Positions 755 through 55,312 of a stretch of 64,000 bases of DNA are shown piece after piece. The stretch spans positions 620,001-684,000 of the forward strand of contig JAKCFM010000002.1 in NCBI GenBank assembly GCA_025041195.1, given 5' to 3'. Below the pieces are notes generated by a model. It made no database searches, had not been told where the DNA came from, and saw only the letters and a list, made by a program, of their open reading frames with translations. The position numbers and the translations under genes are program-made. Every line of letters starts with the position of its first letter. Position 1 is the first letter of the stretch. The stretch is from Halobacteriales archaeon YIM A00013. GTDB taxonomy: Archaea; Halobacteriota; Halobacteria; Halobacteriales; Haloarculaceae.

Positions 755-1040
755 GCATCTTGGGCCCGTGGTCGACCACGATGTGATTAATCAGGGCTCC
801 ACCACCAATCCAACGTGGCCCTCCACATATGCACTCCACCAAGCACACTGAATTTACAGTATTGATTGATATTTGTTGAATATCAGACTGAGGCTCTATA
901 CAACTTTCATGGCGTTTTGGCCCAATTTTTAATATTGCAGAGATCTAATTAGATATGTTCGGACTCAACATGTCTTCATTGCTCGTACGGACGGTGTTCG
1001 GGTGTGTTTCGTGGTTGTCAAATATCCAATAATTGTACCT

Positions 1041-4000
1041 ATGATTCATGGACGATCCAGTGTCGTACTCAGTGTCGTATGCATCGTTATCATCGCAACG
1101 TTCGTTCCGGTTGGGGCTCTCGGGGCTATCGATCCGATTCCAGGGCTCGACTGGTCGGCCGGGCAAACGGCCGATCTGCGGGCGTCGGACACAGAGCGGG
1201 CCGCCACCATCGCGCCGGCACTCAATCAGTCAAATGGAACTGTCGAAGTGATGGTTGAACTCGAGTCGGCGAACACCGCACTAAACACGGAGTTTGAGAC
1301 CACTCGGACAACGCTTCGACGCCACGCCGCAGAAACCCAACGGCCGGTCGTCGAGTTTGCCCGCTCTCATCCTTCGTCGGTGACGGTTGAGCGTCGGCTC
1401 TGGCTAGCAAACGTAGTGTTGTTGACGGTCGACACAGACCGCATCTCATTGAACCGGATTGGGGCCGTTTCGGGTGTCGAACGACTCTCACCGAACGAAC
1501 GGCTACAGACGCCGCGTCCACAGCCAACAAATGCGAGCCGAGCTGCCGTGAACACAAGCACCGCAGGCGAATACAACACGACCTACGGAGTCGATCAGGT
1601 GAACGCGCCTGCCGTCTGGTCGGAGCATGATACCCGTGGTGAAGGGGTATCGGTCGCAGTTCTCGACAGTGGTGTTGCCGTTGACCATGACGATATCGAG
1701 CTCCATACTACCAATTCATCCGATCCGACGTATCCCGGTGGGTGGGCGGAGTTCACGCAAACTGGTGGGCGCGTCGACGATAGCAATCCACGGGCAGTCT
1801 GTGGCGATCATGGAACGCACACAAGCGGGACCGTCGCTGGCGCAAACGCCAGTGGTGAATGGATTGGCGTGGCACCGAACGTCGAGCTCCTGCACGGAGC
1901 AGTGTTGACCGAATCCACAGGCTTTGGCTGTGGCGGCTCGACCGTGCAGGTGATTGCCGGGATGCAGTGGGCAGTAAACAACTCCGCCGACGTGATTAGT
2001 ATGAGTCTCGGCGGATCGGCTGACGGAGAACTGGTCGATCCGGTCAGAAATGCCGAGGCTGCCGGAACGATCGTCGTTGGGGCCACTGGAAATAGTGGTG
2101 ACGGAACTGCCGGCTCACCGGGGTCAGTGTACGAAACGGTCGCGGTTGGCTCGACGGCGAACGATCGCAGCGTCGCCGGCTCATCTGGCGGGATGACAGT
2201 CGAGGCCAATTCCACATTCCCCCACGCACCCGAGGGATGGCCGTCAACGTACGTCGTTCCCGACGTGGTCGCCCCCGGGGTTGACGTCAAGAGCGCCGTA
2301 CCGAATGGGGGATACACAACCCATTCGGGCACCTCGATGGCAACGCCGCACGTTGCTGGCGTGATCGCACTCATGCTGTCAAGCAGCACTGACGATCCAA
2401 CGCCAGCCCAAATCAAGCAGGCGCTCTACTCCACAGCAATCAAACCCAAAGACTGCTCGCCAAGCTGTTCACCGCGTGACGGCAACGACACCAGATACGG
2501 AGCTGGAATCGTTGATGCGTACGCGAGCGTCTCCGCACTCAATCCAGTTCCCACACACCAGATCGGTGACGTTGACGAAGACGGGTCGCTTACGGTCACT
2601 GATATCCAACTGCTCCAGCAGTATCTAGCGGATTCGTTGGCTGAAGACGCACCATTCAACGAGGAGCTGGCAGATATCGACCGTGATGGGAGTATCACGC
2701 ACAAGGATCTCCGATTGCTCCAACGGTCGGTGCTTGGAGAGCGATCTGCTGGCCGAGTGGAACTGTCTGCGTTTGATGCACCGGACGCCGTTGCAGACGG
2801 TGATTCAATTTCGGTGTCTGTTACGGCGACCAATACTGGTGGACGAGGCGTCATCGAGGAGCTCTCATACCAATTTGGCAATCGTTCTGACCTCGGAACG
2901 AATGCGACGGTGGCGAGTGAGGTGGTGGACCTAGGTCCCGGAGCGTCGACGACTGTCACGTTCGAGCACACGCCCGACGTTCGTCCGGGAGAGTATCACC
3001 ACACTGTGGTGAGCAACACGGATGCGGTGAGTGATCAGCTGACGATCCGCGGTGGATCGTTCACGATTCAGTCAGTTGCGACGCCATCATCGATCGCCGC
3101 CGGTGAGACGGTTCGCTCGAACGTAACGGTCGAGAACACCGGCAACGAGAACGCGACCCACACGGTTGCGTCCACGCTCGAAACGATCGGGACGAGCCGT
3201 CAGAACATCACGCTTGCTGCTGGAAACAGCACGACCGTACCATTCTCCCACCAGATTCCGGCAACGACCCAGAGTGCGACAATTGAACAGGTCGTAACAA
3301 CACCGACGGATGCGACCACCAAATCGGTGCGAATTGATTCACCATTTTTTAGCGTTGGTGGCCTCTCTGGGCCCTCACCCGTCGCCCTCGGTGAGCCCGT
3401 CTCCGTTTCGACGACGGTCACGAACACCGGCAACGCAACCGGGTCAACGCCAGTGACGTACGATCTTGTTCGCAAAGCCACGTCAGTCGCCGTCGTCGAC
3501 ACCGAGCATGGCTACGGTGACCAGGTGGTATCCGCACTCAACGCGACGCTGCCCGACCGGTACACCATCACGTTGGTTGATGATGCAGCGGCTATTGACG
3601 CGGTCGATGCCCACGACGTTGTCGTCGTTCAGGACCTCAATCGCCAATCACTCGACGTTCAGCAGTTCGTCGACCGACTCAACTCTTCCGCCACCGGGGC
3701 CGTCTGGCTGGATAGTTGGGGTGTGTACAGCGATGCCATTGTCGAGCGGTCGGTCGTGACCGGCACCCCATCGAGTATGAATGATACCGATACGGGTCAA
3801 TCGCCGGTCAGTCTGACCGCAACGGCCGAACATCCGATTCTCAACGATGTTGTCGCAACAAACGAGTCAGTGGCGATCCACCACGGCCAGTACGCGGACC
3901 GGTCGTGGTTTCACGGCTTTGATGGCCGTACGATCGGAACGGTGGGCGCTGAAGGGAGTCGCCTGGGTGGCCCCGCAGTAGCCGTCGATTCCGACAGTGC

Positions 4001-6035
4001 AACAGTGCTCGCTGCCACGTTTGGCCGCGAATATTTCGTGCAAAATCCGTCGTTCACTCACGCCGCAGATCACATTCTGGCCAATGCCGTCCGCTGGGCG
4101 GACAGTCACACAACAGCCAGCACACCTACGACGACGAACACCACCCGCCGGGTATCTCTCACTCCGGGAGAGTCCAAACAACTCTCATTCTCGTCGGAAA
4201 TTCCATCTAGACTGGATCGTACTGAGCAGTGGTTATATTCTGTGCAAACACGCGATGATCGGAATCGAACCCCAGTAACGGTTCAGAAACGTACTGGGCG
4301 GGTTGCAGGCATTGTTACCGACAACACAACGAACGATCCCGTCTCGAACGTGACTGTCAGAATCAATAGTACAAATGGATCAACATCCACCATCACGAAC
4401 GAAGACGGCGAGTACGCCGTTGGCACAGTTCCGGTTGGTGACCAACAGCTCGGCCTGGATTCTGATCGATATCACGCGCCGAATCGGACGGTGACGGTAT
4501 CGCACAACGAAACCACCACGGCCAACATTTCTGTCTCACCAGCGAACGGTACGATCACCGGCAGCGTTGTCGCCGCTGACACGGGAACCCCCCTTGCAAA
4601 CGTCACGGTCACACGTACCGACGGCAACGATACCACACAGCGGGTTACCACCAATGAGTCCGGTCAGTACTCAATGACCGTTTCGCCTGGTCGGTATCTC
4701 GTCTCGATCGGTGACGCCCCAGACAATTATCGCTCGCAGTCGGTTGTCACTGTTGGGCCGGGTGAGATGGTTTCGGGCGTCGACTTTCAGCTCACTCCGA
4801 AATCAGGAATGCTATCTGGGTACGTGCGAAATGGTGCGGGCGAACCGATCGAGGCGGCCACAGTCACTGACGTGGACGCCGGTGCTTTCGAAACCACGAC
4901 GAATGAAAGCGGATATTATGAATTCGACGGCCTCGATCGTGGGACGTACGCAGTCGTTGCAAACGCCAGTGGCTACAACGAAACGTCAATACAGTTCCCC
5001 GTTGTTCGACCGACTGAGACGACAACACAGAACTTCACGATGGGGGCGTATTTCGGCGTCTCGAATCTCTCGGCTCCCGAGCGCGCGGAGACAAACGAGA
5101 CGATTACCGTCTCAGCAACCATCACCAACACTGGCTCCGAAACGGCGACCCGGTCGGTGTTTTATCTCCCGCCTGGAACCGACTTCGGCGCGTCGAGTTC
5201 GAACGGATCGATTGAACGACGGGTAACGCTTGCTGGTGGCGAACAAACGAGGGTGTCGTTTACGATTCCGGTTGCGTCGTCGCTGGACCCCGGAACGTAC
5301 CAGCATGGCATCTCAGCCGACGAAGTGTCAGCCACGACGATCACCATCGATTCGCCCACTGAGACGCCACCAGCCTCGTTCGAGATCGTCAACGCCAGCG
5401 CACCAGCCTCGGTTTCGGCGGGGGAGCAGTTTGCAGTGAACGTAACTGTCGAAAACAATGGAGAAACCCCAGGCGCGACGCCGGTAACGATCCGTCGGAA
5501 GGACGAAACGCAGACGAAAACGACGGCCACACTCGACCCTGGCGAACGACAAACAGTGTCACACACTGTCACGGCACCATCCGAAACGGGACCAGCAACG
5601 TATGAGCTCTCGACACACAACGACTCGGTCGAACGCACTGTCAGCGTTGCGGCGAACGATTCTGGGCCAGCGTATTTTGCGGTCTCGAACGTTACGGCCC
5701 CGGATCAGGTTCCAGCCGGATCCCAACTCAGAGTCAACGCCACCGTTGCGAACACTGGCGGAAATGCGACAACGCAGTCGATTTACTGCTTCATCGAACC
5801 GTCTCAGAACGAGACTGCCGATTCGGCTCGACGGTCTCGGTCAGCGACGCAACTTACCCTCGCACCTGGTGAGTCCAAACACATCTCGTTTTCAACGGAG
5901 GTCGGGGCTGCTGACTCGCCAGGTGAGTATGTGATAGCCGTCTCATCACTGCAAGAAACAGACACACGACCCCTCACCGTCAGTCGTCCAGCGGACACAA
6001 TGAACCAATCTCAGAAGTCTGTCAGTACACCGTAG
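1041..6035 (+). CDS. Secreted subtilisin-like serine protease with dockerin, CARDB and carboxypeptidase-regulatory-like domains
   Basis: A 1664-residue exported protease. The ATG at 1041 gives a short basic N-terminus and a hydrophobic signal helix (MIHGRSSVVLSVVCIVIIAT); an ATG 39 nt upstream would disrupt this. After a propeptide the S8 domain shows the triad: Asp in VAVLDSGVAV (about residue 209), His in CGDHGTHTSG (about 257) and Ser in HSGTSMATPHVAG (about 432). A dockerin-like pair of calcium loops follows (DVDEDGSLTVTD and DIDRDGSITHKD, about 510-580). Then come CARDB-type adhesion repeats, a segment resembling a ThuA/glutamine-amidotransferase-like fold (VAVVDTEHGYGDQVV), three carboxypeptidase-regulatory-like repeats (about 1090-1340) and further CARDB repeats. 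It is Asn-Thr/Ser rich and probably glycosylated. No C-terminal membrane anchor is visible. The target proteins are unknown. Confidence 0.9.
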   Translation: MIHGRSSVVLSVVCIVIIATFVPVGALGAIDPIPGLDWSAGQTADLRASDTERAATIAPALNQSNGTVEVMVELESANTALNTEFETTRTTLRRHAAETQRPVVEFARSHPSSVTVERRLWLANVVLLTVDTDRISLNRIGAVSGVERLSPNERLQTPRPQPTNASRAAVNTSTAGEYNTTYGVDQVNAPAVWSEHDTRGEGVSVAVLDSGVAVDHDDIELHTTNSSDPTYPGGWAEFTQTGGRVDDSNPRAVCGDHGTHTSGTVAGANASGEWIGVAPNVELLHGAVLTESTGFGCGGSTVQVIAGMQWAVNNSADVISMSLGGSADGELVDPVRNAEAAGTIVVGATGNSGDGTAGSPGSVYETVAVGSTANDRSVAGSSGGMTVEANSTFPHAPEGWPSTYVVPDVVAPGVDVKSAVPNGGYTTHSGTSMATPHVAGVIALMLSSSTDDPTPAQIKQALYSTAIKPKDCSPSCSPRDGNDTRYGAGIVDAYASVSALNPVPTHQIGDVDEDGSLTVTDIQLLQQYLADSLAEDAPFNEELADIDRDGSITHKDLRLLQRSVLGERSAGRVELSAFDAPDAVADGDSISVSVTATNTGGRGVIEELSYQFGNRSDLGTNATVASEVVDLGPGASTTVTFEHTPDVRPGEYHHTVVSNTDAVSDQLTIRGGSFTIQSVATPSSIAAGETVRSNVTVENTGNENATHTVASTLETIGTSRQNITLAAGNSTTVPFSHQIPATTQSATIEQVVTTPTDATTKSVRIDSPFFSVGGLSGPSPVALGEPVSVSTTVTNTGNATGSTPVTYDLVRKATSVAVVDTEHGYGDQVVSALNATLPDRYTITLVDDAAAIDAVDAHDVVVVQDLNRQSLDVQQFVDRLNSSATGAVWLDSWGVYSDAIVERSVVTGTPSSMNDTDTGQSPVSLTATAEHPILNDVVATNESVAIHHGQYADRSWFHGFDGRTIGTVGAEGSRLGGPAVAVDSDSATVLAATFGREYFVQNPSFTHAADHILANAVRWADSHTTASTPTTTNTTRRVSLTPGESKQLSFSSEIPSRLDRTEQWLYSVQTRDDRNRTPVTVQKRTGRVAGIVTDNTTNDPVSNVTVRINSTNGSTSTITNEDGEYAVGTVPVGDQQLGLDSDRYHAPNRTVTVSHNETTTANISVSPANGTITGSVVAADTGTPLANVTVTRTDGNDTTQRVTTNESGQYSMTVSPGRYLVSIGDAPDNYRSQSVVTVGPGEMVSGVDFQLTPKSGMLSGYVRNGAGEPIEAATVTDVDAGAFETTTNESGYYEFDGLDRGTYAVVANASGYNETSIQFPVVRPTETTTQNFTMGAYFGVSNLSAPERAETNETITVSATITNTGSETATRSVFYLPPGTDFGASSSNGSIERRVTLAGGEQTRVSFTIPVASSLDPGTYQHGISADEVSATTITIDSPTETPPASFEIVNASAPASVSAGEQFAVNVTVENNGETPGATPVTIRRKDETQTKTTATLDPGERQTVSHTVTAPSETGPATYELSTHNDSVERTVSVAANDSGPAYFAVSNVTAPDQVPAGSQLRVNATVANTGGNATTQSIYCFIEPSQNETADSARRSRSATQLTLAPGESKHISFSTEVGAADSPGEYVIAVSSLQETDTRPLTVSRPADTMNQSQKSVSTP

Positions 6036-13799: not shown

Positions 13800-15137
13800 T
13801 CAGTTCGAATCCGCTGTCGATAGCGTCGATAATCCATCGAGACGGCGGAAAACACGCGTTGCGAACCGTGGCTCGATGGTACTCGGTGTTCGACCGACCC
13901 ACTCGTCTGTCGGCTCTATCTGGATTCGGTGTGCAATCCCGGTGTCTGCGAGCTCATACAGCAGCCGCTTGACCGTACTGGATGAGAGGCCAACGGCGGG
14001 ATGATCTGCGATCGAGGTTGCCGTCGTTTCGATTGGTGCGGTGTGATTGCCTTCGATGAGCGCATGTAACACCCGTCGGCGGTTTTCTGCGAGCGCAAGG
14101 ACGCGTCCGAGGGCGGCCCCCCCGTTCGGTACGCCGTCCATTCCGGCGTGGAGATCCCGGTCACGAATGGTGTCACTCCCTGTTTCGATGGCGATGTCAG
14201 CCGCACAGAACAGTGCACAGAGGGCGTCGTGTGCGTTGCCATCGCTCCAGGTGGCGATCGTTCGCAGCTGTTCGTGTGCTATCGCACGACGGGCGAGCCC
14301 ATTAGTCGCTCGCTGTGTCAATATATCAATCATAATGGGGACACGATACGCTGGTAGTTCAATCGTGACGGGGGGACGGACCGTCTGGGAGAGCGTTCTG
14401 GGGGGTGCTCTGGCGATTGCCACCCAGGAAAGACCATCCCCGACGTAGCCACATGCATCCGCAAGCGTGGCGAGATCGTGTGCGCCTGGCTCACCGACGT
14501 GATCAAACGCGACCAACAGGGTGTTCTCCGTTGTCTGTAGATGCTCCTGTAGCCTGTTCCGTAGCCGTTCGGTTCCAACGCCGTTTTTGGGAACGTCTTC
14601 GAGGACCGCGTCGAGGATTGACTGATACACGCCAAACTCCGTGCTTGCGCTCCGACAGTCCACATAGACCAGCCCAGGGGTCGTTGTCGAATCGACCCGG
14701 GTTGCCGTGTGGATGATCGTATCAGTGTGTGACCGAATCTGTCGGAGTCCACGAAACAGCGCAGTGATAATCGCAGTTTTCCCACTCCCGGCCGGTCCCC
14801 AGAGATAGGCGTTCGACGGAAGCTGCCCGTCGAAAATCGGTTCGAAGTAGTCGAGTAACCGCTCGATAATCGCCCCACGACCGATGGGTTCTTCTATATG
14901 CGCAACCGGATTGATCGGTTCATACTCCTGTATCAGTCGCGTCTCGGTGCTTGATTCTGCCCGTCGACGAATTCTCGACTGCAGATCCATCGACCGATTC
15001 ATTGCTGGTCTGGGTTCGTGCGTTCCAGCCGAATTCGTCGGTTGGACGGTCTCGTGAGTGGCTCTGTCTGTCCCATTTCGCCCCGTCGGCGCTCGAGTGT
15101 CCGACTGTTGGTATCGATGCTTGTCCCATTCAGCCAT
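13800..15137 (-). CDS. Orc1/Cdc6-like AAA+ ATPase with winged-helix C-terminus
   Basis: 445 residues. After a basic/acidic low-complexity head (1-60) comes an Orc1/Cdc6-style core: the initiator-like start EYEPINPVAHIEEPIGRGAI, Walker A WGPAGSGKTAIITAL, a conserved VYVDCRSASTEFGVYQSIL, and a Walker B segment LLVAFDHVGEPG that has Asp-His where Asp-Glu is normal. The lid and sensor region follow (ATWSDGNAHDALCALFCAADIA), then a winged helix (LSSSTVKRLLYELADTGIAHRIQI). Such proteins bind origins or act as regulators. The altered Walker B and the position between glpK and glpABC argue against a main replication initiator. The start at 15137 leaves 110 bp to the divergent glpA. Confidence 0.75.
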   Translation of the reverse strand: MAEWDKHRYQQSDTRAPTGRNGTDRATHETVQPTNSAGTHEPRPAMNRSMDLQSRIRRRAESSTETRLIQEYEPINPVAHIEEPIGRGAIIERLLDYFEPIFDGQLPSNAYLWGPAGSGKTAIITALFRGLRQIRSHTDTIIHTATRVDSTTTPGLVYVDCRSASTEFGVYQSILDAVLEDVPKNGVGTERLRNRLQEHLQTTENTLLVAFDHVGEPGAHDLATLADACGYVGDGLSWVAIARAPPRTLSQTVRPPVTIELPAYRVPIMIDILTQRATNGLARRAIAHEQLRTIATWSDGNAHDALCALFCAADIAIETGSDTIRDRDLHAGMDGVPNGGAALGRVLALAENRRRVLHALIEGNHTAPIETTATSIADHPAVGLSSSTVKRLLYELADTGIAHRIQIEPTDEWVGRTPSTIEPRFATRVFRRLDGLSTLSTADSN

Positions 15138-21313: not shown

Positions 21314-21398
21314 GTGCGGGGTGTCATAGCACGATGGTTCCCGATCCAAATTCTTTTTGGGCGGATCCGCGAGAGTATCTATATCCTTGAACGGGCGA

Positions 21399-22940
21399 AT
21401 GCAGGTCGTGCGGGCGCTGGCAAAGCAGGGGTACAACGCCGATCGAGCGGCTGTATCGCTGATAGCCTCAACTGAAACGCCCGCGAAAGTCATACAGGAA
21501 ACAGTAGCCGCAGTTCCAGCGGGAACGCTTCGTCTTACGGTTTCGCACGTAGAATCAGCACTTGATTCGCTCGAAGACGTGTCTCGACCGGAGCCAGTGT
21601 CTATCGATCCGGACAACGTTCCGGATTCTCACGGTGGCGAAACGTCTAGCGGCGATGGTTCGTCAGCTGTGGGCGCTACGGCGACGATGCAGACAGAACC
21701 AGGTGGGACAGAACAGCCATCACAGTCGTCCCACCCATCACAAACCCTTGAGATCGACGGTGATGTGACTGGCGACAGCACTGGAACGGGGACGTTTGAG
21801 ACGTTTCTACAGACGTTTCAGGACCGGTATCAACGGCTTTCGAGCATGTTGCGCGGCCGTTTGAACCATCGGCCGGCAGAGACCCTGGCATCGATGGAGG
21901 GTGGGTCCGATGGGGCAATGATCGGTCTCGTTAACGACATTCAATCCACCAAGAACGGACACTGGATTATCGAACTCGAAGACACCACGGGAACGTTCCC
22001 CTGTCTCGTGATGAAAGATCGCGATATTGCGGATGTTGTGTCCGAACTCTGCTTTGATGAGTGTATTGGCATCGAAGGAACGCTTTCGAATGATGGAGAG
22101 ATCTGCTTTGTCGATTCAATTCACTTCCCTGATATCCCCCGAACCTTCACACCGTCGACGGCTGACCGACCGGTCGAGGCGGCGTTGATCTCCGACGTTC
22201 ACGTTGGGAGTGATGAATTCCATGGGGCTGCCTGGGAGCAGTTCACGTCGTGGCTCCACACCGAAGCGGCCGAACGCGTGGAGTATCTCCTCATTGCCGG
22301 CGACATGGTTGAGGGCGTTGGCGTGTATCCCGAGCAAGATAAAGAGCTCACAATTGTTGATATCTACGACCAATACGAACGGTTTGCTGAACTGCTCAAG
22401 GACGTGCCTGGTGAGATGGAGATCGTGATGATACCTGGCAATCACGACGCCGTTCGGCTGGCTGAGCCCCAGCCGGCGTTCGATGAGGAGCTCCGCTCGA
22501 TCATGAGCGCTCACGATGCCCACATCACGGCAAATCCTTCTACGGTTACGATCGATGGGGTTTCAGTGCTCATGTATCACGGTGTGTCGCTGTTTGAGGT
22601 CATCATTGACACCCCTGGATTGGAACTGGATAACCCGCATGAGGCGATGTACAACCTCTTGAAAAAACGCCATGTTGCCCCGCAGTACGGTGGACAGCTC
22701 CGGCTTGCCCCAGAGGAGGAAGATTATCTGGTGATGGATGAGATTCCCGACGTGTTCCACACCGGTCACTTACACAAGTTCGGGTATGGATCGTACAATA
22801 CAGTTCTCTCGGTCAATACTGGCTGTTGGCAACAACAAACCTCATATCAGAAGTCGCAAGGCATCGTTCCTGATGTTGGGTATGCACCGATTCTTGACCT
22901 GCAGACGCTTGATATGACGATTCGAAAGTTTTCTGGATAA
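21399..22940 (+). CDS. dp1: DNA polymerase D small subunit (DP1), 3'-5' exonuclease
   Basis: About 513 residues. The proofreading subunit of the archaeal replicative DNA polymerase D, a Mre11-like phosphoesterase. Landmarks are the N-terminal helical domain (RALAKQGYNADRAAVSLIA), a poorly conserved linker (residues 60-150), an OB fold (STKNGHWIIELEDTTGTFPCLVM), then the metal sites ALISDVHVGSDEF, LLIAGDMVEGVG, MIPGNHDAVRLAEPQ, VLMYHG and HTGHLHKFGYGSY. I give the ATG at 21399. The in-frame TTG at 21387 would add four residues and aligns about as well with relatives, so the start is uncertain. Its presence supports a chromosomal location. Confidence 0.96.
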   Translation: MQVVRALAKQGYNADRAAVSLIASTETPAKVIQETVAAVPAGTLRLTVSHVESALDSLEDVSRPEPVSIDPDNVPDSHGGETSSGDGSSAVGATATMQTEPGGTEQPSQSSHPSQTLEIDGDVTGDSTGTGTFETFLQTFQDRYQRLSSMLRGRLNHRPAETLASMEGGSDGAMIGLVNDIQSTKNGHWIIELEDTTGTFPCLVMKDRDIADVVSELCFDECIGIEGTLSNDGEICFVDSIHFPDIPRTFTPSTADRPVEAALISDVHVGSDEFHGAAWEQFTSWLHTEAAERVEYLLIAGDMVEGVGVYPEQDKELTIVDIYDQYERFAELLKDVPGEMEIVMIPGNHDAVRLAEPQPAFDEELRSIMSAHDAHITANPSTVTIDGVSVLMYHGVSLFEVIIDTPGLELDNPHEAMYNLLKKRHVAPQYGGQLRLAPEEEDYLVMDEIPDVFHTGHLHKFGYGSYNTVLSVNTGCWQQQTSYQKSQGIVPDVGYAPILDLQTLDMTIRKFSG

Positions 22941-23226: not shown

Positions 23227-23316
23227 TAATACCGTACGAACTGTATGAACTACATATACAGCGCATACCGTCTTTCCTGTCTATACTGCCTATACTTTCT
23301 ATACTGTCTTCACTGT
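23227..23316. repeat. Ten in-phase 9-bp ACWGT-type units beside the par operon
   Basis: Read from 23227 in steps of nine, the units end ACCGT, ACTGT, ACTAC, ACAGC, ACCGT, CCTGT, ACTGC, ACTTT, ACTGT, ACTGT. Phase is kept for 90 bp although several cores are degenerate. The cluster lies between the convergent ends of the zinc-ribbon gene and the RHH-like gene. With the large array on the other side, the par operon is therefore bracketed by repeat DNA. Confidence 0.75.
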
Positions 23317-23382: not shown

Positions 23383-23781
23383 TTAGTCGTTTTCGAGCGC
23401 TTCGGGTGCTATATCACGGGCTTCGAGGACGAGCCGTGTGAGTTCTTCGTGGTTTTCGTGCGCGAGGCGAACCATGGCGTCGTGTGCTTCGCGAACTTCG
23501 AAGTCGTCGTATCCGAGCCCGAGGAGTTCGTTTTCGACGCTGTTGCAGAGAAGCTTGATTCGTCGGGCAGTCTGTGCTTCTGGATAGATTGAGAGTTTTT
23601 TGCTCTCACCTGCGGTGAACGCTGGTCCCCCGTCGGAGGGAGTGTTCTCCTCCGTCGAATCGTTCTCCACGGATGGTTCAGGTGGTTCTGGGGTGGATTC
23701 GGGTTCATTTGCTTGTTCGTCGTCCGGTGCTGCTCCTTCTTTGACCTGATCCAACTGGTTTCTCAGATTGCTGCTGTCCAT
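23383..23781 (-). CDS. Putative ribbon-helix-helix DNA-binding partner of ParA
   Basis: 132 residues from the ATG at 23781, one base past the parA stop; a GTG at 23790 overlapping parA is an alternative. Residues 12-58 are acidic, Pro/Ser/Thr-rich and likely disordered. The C-terminal domain has the order expected of an RHH fold: strand KKLSIY (61-66), helix QTARRIKLLCNSVENELL (about 70-87) and helix EVREAHDAMVRLAHENHEEL (about 95-115). The short N-terminal segment SSNLRNQL with its Arg could contact ParA, as the N-termini of RHH centromere-binding proteins do. It is cotranscribed with parA and flanked by the 9-bp arrays, so I infer that it binds ACWGT units. The family was not recognised from a named homologue. 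Confidence 0.7.
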   Translation of the reverse strand: MDSSNLRNQLDQVKEGAAPDDEQANEPESTPEPPEPSVENDSTEENTPSDGGPAFTAGESKKLSIYPEAQTARRIKLLCNSVENELLGLGYDDFEVREAHDAMVRLAHENHEELTRLVLEARDIAPEALEND

Positions 23782-23782
23782 A

Positions 23783-24646
23783 TTAAGCACGCTCCGCGAC
23801 GATATCTGCCAGGGTGTCGAAGTGTTCTAGTTGATCGCACGATCCATTGTATGCCCCAACCGGCATATTGTTCGAGAAGGAATCCGAGAGCGCATCACGT
23901 TCACGAATTCCCGGTAGTGGAATGTCTCCCCGTCCGTTCTGGTCGATTTTCTCCCACTGTTCGTCGGTGATTCTGGCGTACGGTGGAAGATAGTCGGCCC
24001 AGTTGCGGTTGAGGTCTTCGAGGAGTCGTCGGTCCGGTTTGTTTGGCCGGATGGACTCACTCAGCATGTTCGGCGTGATGGCCAATATATCTGCGGCCCC
24101 ATCTGTCGCCTCGATGATTGGCAACAGTTGGGTTTCCATGATACGCTCTAGGCCACTGATTGATCCCTGCCCTGGGATCACCGGAACGATGAAGCTCTGG
24201 GCTGCGACGAGTGCGTTGTCTGCGACTTTCGATGGATCACCCGGCGTATCAAGGACGACGTAGTCGTAGCCGTCGTTTCGGAGTGGATCGACAACCTCGT
24301 TTTTCAGGATCACGTCCGCATTCATCTGGTTTTTCATCCGATCGTTGATGGTGGACATCTCCGTGGAGCTGGGAACCACACCGAAGCCCCATTCGGTATC
24401 GATCACCAACTCCTTTGGATGCAGGTCCCGGAAAATGACTTCTTCGATGTGACCGTTCTGGTTGTACGCATCGCCAAATCCCAGAAATTCCGTTCCGTGC
24501 CCGTTCTTATCGACATCCACGTACACTGTGTCGCCATGTTTTTCCTGTAATCGGTGTGCAAGGTTGATCGCTATCGTCGATTTTCCCATTCCGCCCTTCA
24601 GAATACACACTGCGACGACGCCATTTTTCGTTGTCTGTGGTTTCAT
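23783..24646 (-). CDS. parA: ParA/Soj-family partition ATPase
   Basis: 287 residues. The deviant Walker A KGGMGKSTIAINLA (Lys17, Lys22) is the ParA/MinD signature; Walker A' is VYVDVDKNGHGTEFLG and Walker B is YDYVVLDTPGDPS (about 128-138). Such ATPases bind nucleoid DNA as ATP dimers and move DNA cargo through a centromere-bound partner. There is no C-terminal amphipathic membrane helix of MinD type. The second gene, one base downstream, encodes the probable RHH partner. The start codon (24644-24646) is almost in contact with the 1.5-kb array of 9-bp units, so the promoter must lie inside it and autoregulation by the partner is likely (inference). Confidence 0.9.
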   Translation of the reverse strand: MKPQTTKNGVVAVCILKGGMGKSTIAINLAHRLQEKHGDTVYVDVDKNGHGTEFLGFGDAYNQNGHIEEVIFRDLHPKELVIDTEWGFGVVPSSTEMSTINDRMKNQMNADVILKNEVVDPLRNDGYDYVVLDTPGDPSKVADNALVAAQSFIVPVIPGQGSISGLERIMETQLLPIIEATDGAADILAITPNMLSESIRPNKPDRRLLEDLNRNWADYLPPYARITDEQWEKIDQNGRGDIPLPGIRERDALSDSFSNNMPVGAYNGSCDQLEHFDTLADIVAERA

Positions 24647-24647
24647 A

Positions 24648-26169
24648 GTCGACTGTCTGAACAGTGGCTACACAAAGTGCACTGTACAAACGGTGTATAA
24701 AGTGGGAACATCATAATAATCCCGGTCCTGACCAAAAGCGTATACACTGTTTTAACAGTACATACTGTATAGTAATGGGTGTGAAGGATCACGTAACGGT
24801 ACGCCCTGATCCCTGTCGCGTTTACCACCGGTTCGCTGGAGCACACTGTGAATACTGCATATACAGTGCTCACTGTTCAAACTGAGAATACTGTATAAAC
24901 AGTGGAAATACTGATCACGATATCCATCGTTAACCAGGCCCGAAGGGACAGAGGATTATTCCTCGCTTTCTACTGTGTATGCTGTCTATACCGTGCAAAC
25001 AGTATAGAATGAGCACACTGTTCTAACAGTTTGAAGTGGTGACCAAAGCCAGCAGTGACTTTCTCGGCAATCCGATCTCCAGCAGGTGGTGTCGTTATAC
25101 AGTGCATACAGTGTATAGTGAGCGAACTGTCTCAACTGTGTGGGCTGTTGTTGCTGTGGTAAGCTTGCTTACTGTGCTGACCTTTTACACCGTATTACCA
25201 GTATCTACTGTGTTTCGTTGGACCGGCCGATCGGCGCCCGAAACACCACAAGTACCGTTCCTCGGCCTTGAATCAAACGCGGCACAGTGTATACTGTTCA
25301 GACCGCTTCTACGGTATATACTGTTGTAACAGTGTAATATTTGGGGACTGGACTATTCTACGGAGTTCTTTCGGGATACGAGGTGCTCCCGTTTCGGCAC
25401 AGGATATACTGTTTCCACAGTTCTCACTGTCTAAAACTGTATACACAGTGTCTACTGTATCAATGGCTATCTACAGTCCACACTGTAGGGAGTGTCCAGA
25501 TTACATCCTATTGTTGATACAGACTGTGTAGACTGTGGCTACTGTATGAACAGCTTGTTTCATTTTCACAGTGTCTACAGTATACACAGTTTGCACTTCT
25601 CACGGTGCAGACGCCACATTGACTGTAGCACCGCTAGTACAGTATACGTGAGGTAAACTGTGTGCACAGTGTTAACCGTGGCTACTGTACAGAAGTTGCG
25701 GACGCTATGAACTGTTACAACAGCACAGAGTAGTCAAACAACTGCTGCTGTGAATATAATGTATAGACTGTTTGCAAATCTTACACAGTCTGTACAGTAC
25801 TAAGGCCTGGTCTGCTGTGTCCGATATTGGGAGCGATAGATATACGCTCCTATTGTACTGTATAGACTGTTCCAACCGTATATACTGTCTATAAATAATT
25901 CGGAGCTCCGCATCCAACAATCAGCATAATCTTACTGTTGTTACTGTAAATAAAGTGGATACAGCAGAAACAGTGTATACAGTTTGAATATCCTGTTCGA
26001 ATCCTTTTGACCCTCTACCAGCAGGCAAGGCGGTGATGCAATCTCCTGGTTTCGGAACTGACTCGCAACTCACTCTCCCTGGATACAAGAACAGCGTATT
26101 CGATCACCACTCATTCTACACTGTTCGAACAGTTTGCACTGTGTATACTGCACTCACTGCCGATACAGT
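24648..26169. repeat. 1.5-kb array of phased 9-bp ACWGT units: candidate centromere (parS-like) of the ParA system
   Basis: A gene-free stretch built from clusters of a 9-bp unit NNNNACWGT. ACTGT and ACAGT are reverse complements, so units occur in both orientations. Runs with exact 9-bp spacing, by first base of the core, include 24845-24899 (7 units), 24972-25026 (7 positions, one degenerate), 25099-25207 (13 positions), 25284-25329 (6), 25934-25979 (6) and 26120-26165 (6). Other runs are interrupted by slips of 1-2 bp (for example 24661 to 24672, 25426 to 25436). In-phase variants are GCTGT, ACCGT, ACTGC and ACGGT. I count about 85 units by hand. The array runs from the parA start to 35 bp from the quinone oxidoreductase stop codon. 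The centromere role is inferred from position and from known RHH/ParA systems with short tandem operator units. Confidence 0.85.
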
Positions 26170-34142: not shown

Positions 34143-34196
34143 TTGTACTGTGCCCACATTCTTTACAGTGTGAACAGTATTAGCTGTCCAAACTGT
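34143..34196. repeat. Six-position 9-bp ACWGT cluster (satellite)
   Basis: In-phase 9-mers from 34143 end ACTGT, ACATT, ACAGT, ACAGT, GCTGT, ACTGT; only the second core is degenerate. The span is again 54 bp. It occupies the gap between the P450 stop (34223) and the upstream side of the M50 protease gene, so it might also affect that promoter. Confidence 0.75.
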
Positions 34197-55202: not shown

Positions 55203-55312
55203 TATTACTGTTGAGACAGTATACACTGTGTAAACAGTATAGACAGTTCACGCTGTTCAAGTAAATATACGATAGTTGATTATAAAGGTATCGTCTAAAC
55301 TGAATATACTGT
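55203..55312. repeat. Six-unit 9-bp ACWGT cluster plus a downstream pair (satellite)
   Basis: Units from 55203 end ACTGT, ACAGT, ACTGT, ACAGT, ACAGT and GCTGT without a slip (55203-55256). After about 38 bp two more cores follow 9 bp apart (ACTGA at 55299 and ACTGT at 55308). The cluster lies in the gene-free stretch 54925-55539 between the MFS gene and a broken IclR-type gene. The rest of that stretch is AT-rich and I see nothing else in it. Confidence 0.8.

Follow-up and report, generated by a model that had tools for sequence, protein, structure and literature searches.

The question raised by this locus is what an array of short, regularly spaced units does when it lies immediately upstream of a parA gene in a haloarchaeon. 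The window, that is, the whole stretch of 64,000 nucleotides that was analysed, is part of contig C2 (745,770 bp), one of three contigs of a 3.73-Mb genome. The host is a Halocatena-type haloarchaeon and C2 is its 746-kb minor chromosome; all six sequenced hypha-forming strains of this group have two chromosomes (PMC10067837). The initial annotation described the array as a candidate archaeal centromere. The layout agrees with that proposal and is typical of a partition centromere, with an array that is replicon-specific, apparently near the origin and upstream of an operon of parA and a small gene, while the centromeric function itself is deduced from sequence.

The main array (24652-26169) begins 6 bp upstream of the parA start codon and is made of about 12 clusters of 9-bp-spaced ACWGT(RTAY) units. 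Between positions 24640 and 26180, exact ACWGT occurs 59 times, against a mean of 10 and a maximum of 19 in 500 dinucleotide shuffles. The autocorrelation that had been proposed as a check is clearly present: 26 ACWGT pairs are separated by 9 bp (shuffle mean 0.07, maximum 1), the harmonics at 18, 27, 36 and 45 bp have 14, 16, 12 and 12 pairs, respectively, and the remaining lags are almost empty, which confirms that the array is real. Addition of one-mismatch units locked to an exact neighbour brings the count to 78, close to the 85 or so phase-locked units first estimated; the phase, however, is held inside clusters of 3-12 units and differs between clusters, instead of running through the array. 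Similarly, the 13 consecutive positions claimed at 25099-25211 do keep the 9-bp step, but only 6 are exact cores, with 4 one-mismatch and 3 poor units, whereas the seven positions at 24845-24903 hold as described (5 exact, 2 one-mismatch).

The W of the core is A in 34 units and T in 24, in 35 runs against 29 expected, in agreement with the earlier statement that the two orientations are mixed without order. The flanking bases were thought to be conserved only as an A/T bias, but the 4-bp gap between cores in fact favours R-T-A-Y, so that the unit tends to ACWGTRTAY, which is self-complementary about two alternating centres. Tandem Repeats Finder (TRF) does not report the main array, its sole report nearby being at 23265-23309. 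This silence fits a lattice of sites rather than copied repeats, and a simple tandem repeat was rejected on this basis. A CRISPR was also rejected, as the array has neither conserved repeats of CRISPR length nor spacers. The linkers between clusters are slightly GC-richer than the clusters (48% vs 42% GC), with a centre spacing of about 100-150 bp, and the same is seen in relatives; it is conceivable that a second component is bound there.

The gene next to the array (23783-24646, minus strand) encodes a 287-aa ATPase of the ParA/MinD type, with a deviant Walker A motif, KGGMGKS, at residues 17-23, which fits KGGxGK[ST], and a Pfam AAA_31 match (4.4e-27). Its best NCBIfam match is the ParA family partition ATPase, at 6.7e-14, below the cut-off of that model. 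It is followed on the same strand by a gene for a 132-aa protein, the putative centromere adaptor (23383-23781), whose ATG is 1 bp past the parA stop and which belongs to no known family. This protein has a short N-terminal helix, an acidic disordered linker, a GPAF motif and a C-terminal helical domain. The genome has only one adaptor gene, on C2. The operon of parA and the adaptor ends 0.4 kb from the gene for the small subunit of DNA polymerase D (21357-22940, plus strand); the presence of this essential replication gene on C2 supports its status as a chromosome.

Comparison with Actinarchaeum halophilum YIM 93972 reveals how the array has changed. The ParA protein is 98% identical to one encoded on chromosome 2 of this organism, and 85-91% identical to those of other Halocatena-type strains. 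At the DNA level the identity to YIM 93972 is 91.3% for parA, but only 63% of aligned columns for the array. When gaps are counted as differences, the identity is 83% in the core, 56% in the four gap bases and 53% elsewhere in the array; in six satellites (smaller lattices outside the main array) the values are 92% for the core and 60% for the gap, a contrast that is somewhat inflated because the alignments are partly anchored by the cores. Each of the six satellites that were checked has its equivalent at the orthologous position of YIM 93972, and in two of them a plain blastn alignment breaks on either side of the lattice, yet the lattice is present. The drift of the spacers around preserved cores, together with the layout beside parA, bears out the initial annotation's view that this is selection for a protein lattice and not a copy-amplified satellite or a CRISPR.

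Four of these smaller lattices lie in the window, beyond the stretch first annotated. The nearest (23231-23316; YIM 93972 counterpart 691020-691087) has 10 degenerate positions at 9 bp, just downstream of the adaptor gene. The others are an intergenic lattice of 6 units at 705-754 (counterpart 668544-668575), one of 6 positions in a short intergenic gap at 34147-34196 (counterpart 701863-701912), and one of 6 units at 55207-55256 upstream of an MFS transporter gene (counterpart 723705-723754). In the last of these, each core is either retained or displaced by a single base, with W flipping between A and T and the spacers changed. The lattice at 705-754 is upstream of a gene (1002-6035, plus strand) for a subtilisin-like protein of 1677 aa, which also has dockerin-like and repeated domains.

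The lattice is specific to the minor chromosome. C2 was read in stretches and C1 was scanned by pattern only: ACWGT runs of three units number 14 on C2 and 1 on C1, and a reversed control pattern gives 0. Of the 74 two-unit runs, 14 are on C1, which is near chance as the control gives 13 genome-wide. When the whole of C2 was scored, 19 ACWGT runs emerged, while seven control palindromic cores gave 0-1 each. All but two of the runs on C2 (361267 and 512661) are concentrated at 620.7-686.6 kb, for which the binomial probability is about 1e-4 with the interval taken as given, although the interval was picked after looking. The satellites are mostly within 45 kb of the array, and conserved ones are found up to 130 kb away. 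The three-unit run on C1 of this genome (G000) is at C1:788807-788829, and the main chromosome of YIM 93972 (G183/G194) has a five-unit ACTGT run at 9 bp (C1:1916091-1916131).

The interval with the runs surrounds the cumulative GC-skew minimum of C2, at 634.0 kb (C2:634000, position 14000 of the window). The minimum falls inside a gene for a diverged Orc1/Cdc6-like ATPase (13800-15137, minus strand), which likely marks a replication origin; further Orc1 genes are present elsewhere on C2. The array, at 644.7-646.2 kb, is about 10 kb from both the minimum and this gene, which suggests that it is near the origin of C2.

The lattice is not limited to Halocatena. Forty distant loci were examined over 500 bp on the upstream side of parA: identity at lag 9 is in excess by 0.099, or 16 standard errors, lags 18, 27 and 36 are raised too, and the other lags stay at about zero. 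Lag 9 exceeds lags 5-8 and 10-15 in 38 of the 40, and the periodicity is also found in 17 of 19 loci fetched afterwards, while coding and distant regions have the usual three-base period only. Taking 407 upstream regions of other C2 genes as the control, 55 of 64 cassettes are above its 99th percentile and 53 above its maximum of the harmonic score; the associated p-value of 9e-35 is not to be taken literally, because the cassettes are partly related by ancestry and the counts are not independent. The 9 cassettes that do not pass the 99th percentile are mostly GC-rich (lowest L086, L115, L150 and L148).

The core letters vary by clade, and include ACWGT, AATAGG or ACCTA, CTWAG, ATGTAG, TTGTAGA and CTATTC; only clear cores are quoted, since unsupervised motif fitting per locus was too permissive at GC-rich loci. 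The ACWGT lattice was rejected as a general haloarchaeal element, as other genera have at most single three-unit runs. The earlier view was too narrow in that the lattice is not confined to this genome: the 9-bp spacing, with clade-specific cores, recurs class-wide upstream of the same gene pair. The 9-bp lattice is also found at pNRC200, Haloferax mediterranei pHME505, Halobacterium salinarum R1 pHS3, GN101, DL1 and Halocatena marina, in cassettes annotated just as ParA family protein followed by hypothetical protein, and several cassettes have an Orc1 gene no more than a few kb away. In pHS3 (L129) the unit TCTACTGTR contains the Halocatena ACTGT core even though the two ParA proteins share just about 35% identity, which may reflect either common ancestry or convergence.

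From other lineages, three genomes were examined for replicon specificity. In two of them (G045 and G116), matches to the AATAGG pair pattern are limited to the cassette and a single further spot of the same replicon, 111 and 124 kb off. In the third (G032), CTWAG triplets are found only on the 255-kb contig of the cassette, at 5.9 and 103.6 kb, although here the control pattern also matched. Some lattice cassettes are on contigs of 3-4 Mb, the size of a main chromosome (e.g. G045:C1:3593139-3593261), indicating that the system is not restricted to plasmids; these cassettes may possibly be integrated megaplasmids. The cassettes of the myohaloviruses phiH1 and phiCh1 (L131 and L132) have a distant ParA and a small gene, and were rejected as members as there is no 9-bp lattice upstream; a weak lag-9 signal is seen downstream (z 3.7-4.0).

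The adaptor is accompanied by ParA at nearly all loci examined. Its homologs are found in 71 of 194 sampled Halobacteria genomes (E up to 1e-3), and among 393 genomes of the phylum all 38 adaptor hits are inside the same order; no relatives were found in viral contigs. The same ParA family adjoins the adaptor in all 28 of the first loci, and in 19 of 20 further loci detected with a profile of 42 members. In most relatives the adaptor gene overlaps parA or starts within a few bases of it. The members share an N-terminal motif (MDSSNLRNQLD, NPFDDL, NRFAGL and others), the acidic linker, GPAF, Y-x-R and a helical domain with RExHDA.

The fold of the adaptor could be approached only through a low-confidence AlphaFold model (five sequences, mean pLDDT 64), with helices at residues 4-14, 69-88, 93-109 and 111-121. 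Residues 17-53 are predicted to be disordered, and the N-terminal helix (4-14) is conserved in Halocatena. The initial annotation took the small protein for a ribbon-helix-helix (RHH) protein, which finds no support. Pfam, NCBIfam and PHROGs give no credible match for any member, and there is no Pfam RHH in the 42 members. The family profile has no match in the PDB, Foldseek with the low-confidence model returned nothing significant, and hhalign against haloarchaeal RHH proteins gave a probability of 0.17%, below the reversed control. On these searches an RHH adaptor was rejected; a very diverged RHH protein is possible. The adaptors appear to be an undescribed, haloarchaeal family.

We consider it highly probable that the array is the main, parS-like centromere of the minor chromosome, read by the 132-aa adaptor in a type Ib-like manner, and that such centromeres are carried class-wide. 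This reading draws on the lattice statistics, the replicon specificity, the proximity to the origin, the linkage of ParA and adaptor and the conservation of the satellites, and has to be weighed against other roles. Two observations speak against it: the adaptor shows no DNA-binding fold that could be recognised, and 9 of the 64 cassettes stay at or below the 99th percentile of the control regions. The array could be a transcriptional operator alone, used by the small protein or some different factor to repress the parA operon and scattered genes: its first units are 6 bp from the parA start and overlap the promoter region, and several satellites sit upstream of genes. We regard this as unlikely, since 1.5 kb and about 78 units far exceed the need of one promoter, the satellites keep to a single replicon, where they gather close to the origin, and the operon encodes a ParA partition ATPase in every lineage. 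Partition adaptors usually autoregulate too, so operator action is likely an added role. It is appreciably less probable that the array is itself a replication origin, with iterons or origin recognition boxes for Orc1 or a Rep protein. Tandem short repeats are common in origins and Orc1 genes lie a few kb from several cassettes, the Orc1-like gene being 10 kb from the array; however, the skew minimum at C2:634.0 kb is as far off, the 9-bp lattice tracks the parA-adaptor pair and not orc1, and conserved satellites occur up to 130 kb away.

The two remaining explanations dispense with a dedicated partition or replication role. Sites of a chromatin or nucleoid protein, dense beside parA by chance, would agree with clusters that alternate with GC-richer linkers at a centre spacing of about 100-150 bp, but the near absence of sites from the main chromosome and the linkage of the lattice to one operon across the class leave this a very slim chance. 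We give even less credence to neutral or selfish short-repeat DNA that arose by slippage or duplication and has no bound protein. Slippage can indeed yield short-period repeats, but TRF detects no homogeneous tandem repeat in the main array, the cores are kept between two species while W flips freely and the spacers drift, six satellites are at orthologous places, and other clades have the 9-bp spacing with different letters, so that this explanation is strongly contradicted.

In the centromere reading, dimers of the adaptor would line up on the self-complementary units, one beside the other at 9-bp steps and in either orientation, to form a protein-coated lattice, while the N-terminal segment of the adaptor, predicted to be flexible, would contact the nucleoid-bound ParA ATPase. 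ParA would then move or position the replicon, as in bacterial type Ib partition, with the satellites around the origin widening the partition complex. The 9-bp spacing may be set by protein-protein contact and the core letters by the recognition surface: a lattice of proteins packed side by side needs exactly this combination of constant spacing and changing letters. Since the array extends up to the promoter of parA, autorepression of the operon by the adaptor is probable as well. Megaplasmids and some chromosomes throughout Halobacteria would be served by this set of three parts, with cores that differ by clade. On balance, we lean towards a previously undescribed partition family shared by Halobacteria, in which a ParA clade and an adaptor without known fold act on 9-bp lattices of invariant spacing, whose diverging letters serve as a replicon address.

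We know of no described mode of chromosome and megaplasmid segregation in haloarchaea. Our searches of the open-access literature turned up no account of haloarchaeal centromeres, this adaptor or arrays of 9-bp period beside an archaeal parA, and the lattice is probably a so far undescribed centromere of haloarchaeal megaplasmids and some chromosomes. What characterizes archaeal centromeres has been named among the questions still outstanding (PMC5120986), and chromosomal ParABS is generally absent from archaea according to a survey of 2025 (PMC12704722). If true, this would be the first class of centromere for haloarchaea, covering a second chromosome, megaplasmids and some main chromosomes. 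It would supply the partner and the site that have been missing, in organisms that are genetically tractable or whose genomes are finished (pNRC200, pHS3, the Haloferax mediterranei megaplasmid), and provide a natural experiment in centromere evolution, in which the 9-bp spacing stays fixed and the letters change, presumably along with the adaptor. It also bears on how Halocatena, an archaeon with two chromosomes that forms hyphae and spores (PMC10067837), passes on its minor chromosome. The finding goes beyond the earlier claim, as it points, from sequence evidence, to a class-wide haloarchaeal partition family for which the centromere reading is well supported.

The haloarchaeal system resembles several known partition systems in part. 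Like bacterial ParABS (a ParB CTPase and a 16-bp parS), it has a main site with satellites near the origin of one replicon, but neither a ParB fold in the adaptor nor a canonical parS in the array was found. AspA-ParBA of the Sulfolobus plasmid pNOB8 is also an archaeal plasmid partition system with a ParA, in which AspA nucleates at one 23-bp palindrome and then spreads (PMC5120986); it comprises three proteins, whereas a single adaptor and numerous fixed units are seen here. In SegAB (Sulfolobales and Euryarchaeota), an archaeal ParA-like ATPase is likewise followed by a small DNA-binding protein, whose sites lie both upstream of the operon and at dispersed places on the chromosome (PMC12284271). 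SegB, however, reads isolated 13-bp palindromes (TCTAGASTCTAGA), mostly inside genes and with no 9-bp lattice, and the core of its palindrome, AGASTCT, occurs 0 times in the array. An identity with any of these three systems was thus rejected, on the absence of the SegB palindrome, ParB fold and canonical parS and on the different layout of AspA-ParBA.

The closest resemblance is to type Ib systems. In ParF-ParG-parH of TP228 and ParA-ParB-parC of pCXC100, a short-repeat centromere is upstream of the par operon (PMC5016525), and a small adaptor is encoded after parA. The pCXC100 site is made of direct repeats only (PMC5016525), whereas orientations are mixed in the haloarchaeal array, and the adaptor families are unrelated by sequence search. 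In delta/omega of pSM19035 (ParA delta, RHH omega, 7-bp heptads WATCACW), a ParA also acts with a small adaptor, whose N-terminus is flexible (the haloarchaeal adaptor has a predicted disordered segment there), and many contiguous short units in mixed orientation overlap promoters, at several sites per replicon. Omega makes a left-handed helix on DNA (PMC5016525), and full activation of ParA takes four or more contiguous heptads (PMC9499535). Here the period is 9 and not 7, the core is self-complementary, the array is longer and archaeal, and the adaptor has no detectable RHH homology; ACWGT sites show no lag-7 excess, and WATCACW occurs 0 times in the array. The comparison with the omega heptads made in the initial annotation is apt as a way of working. 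As far as can be seen from its sequence, the adaptor lacks the C-terminal RHH domain of type Ib adaptors, but its gene is directly downstream of parA and coupled to it, and tandem short units lie upstream of the operon. By analogy, the ParA, the adaptor and the 9-bp lattice most likely form a partition system that works like type Ib.
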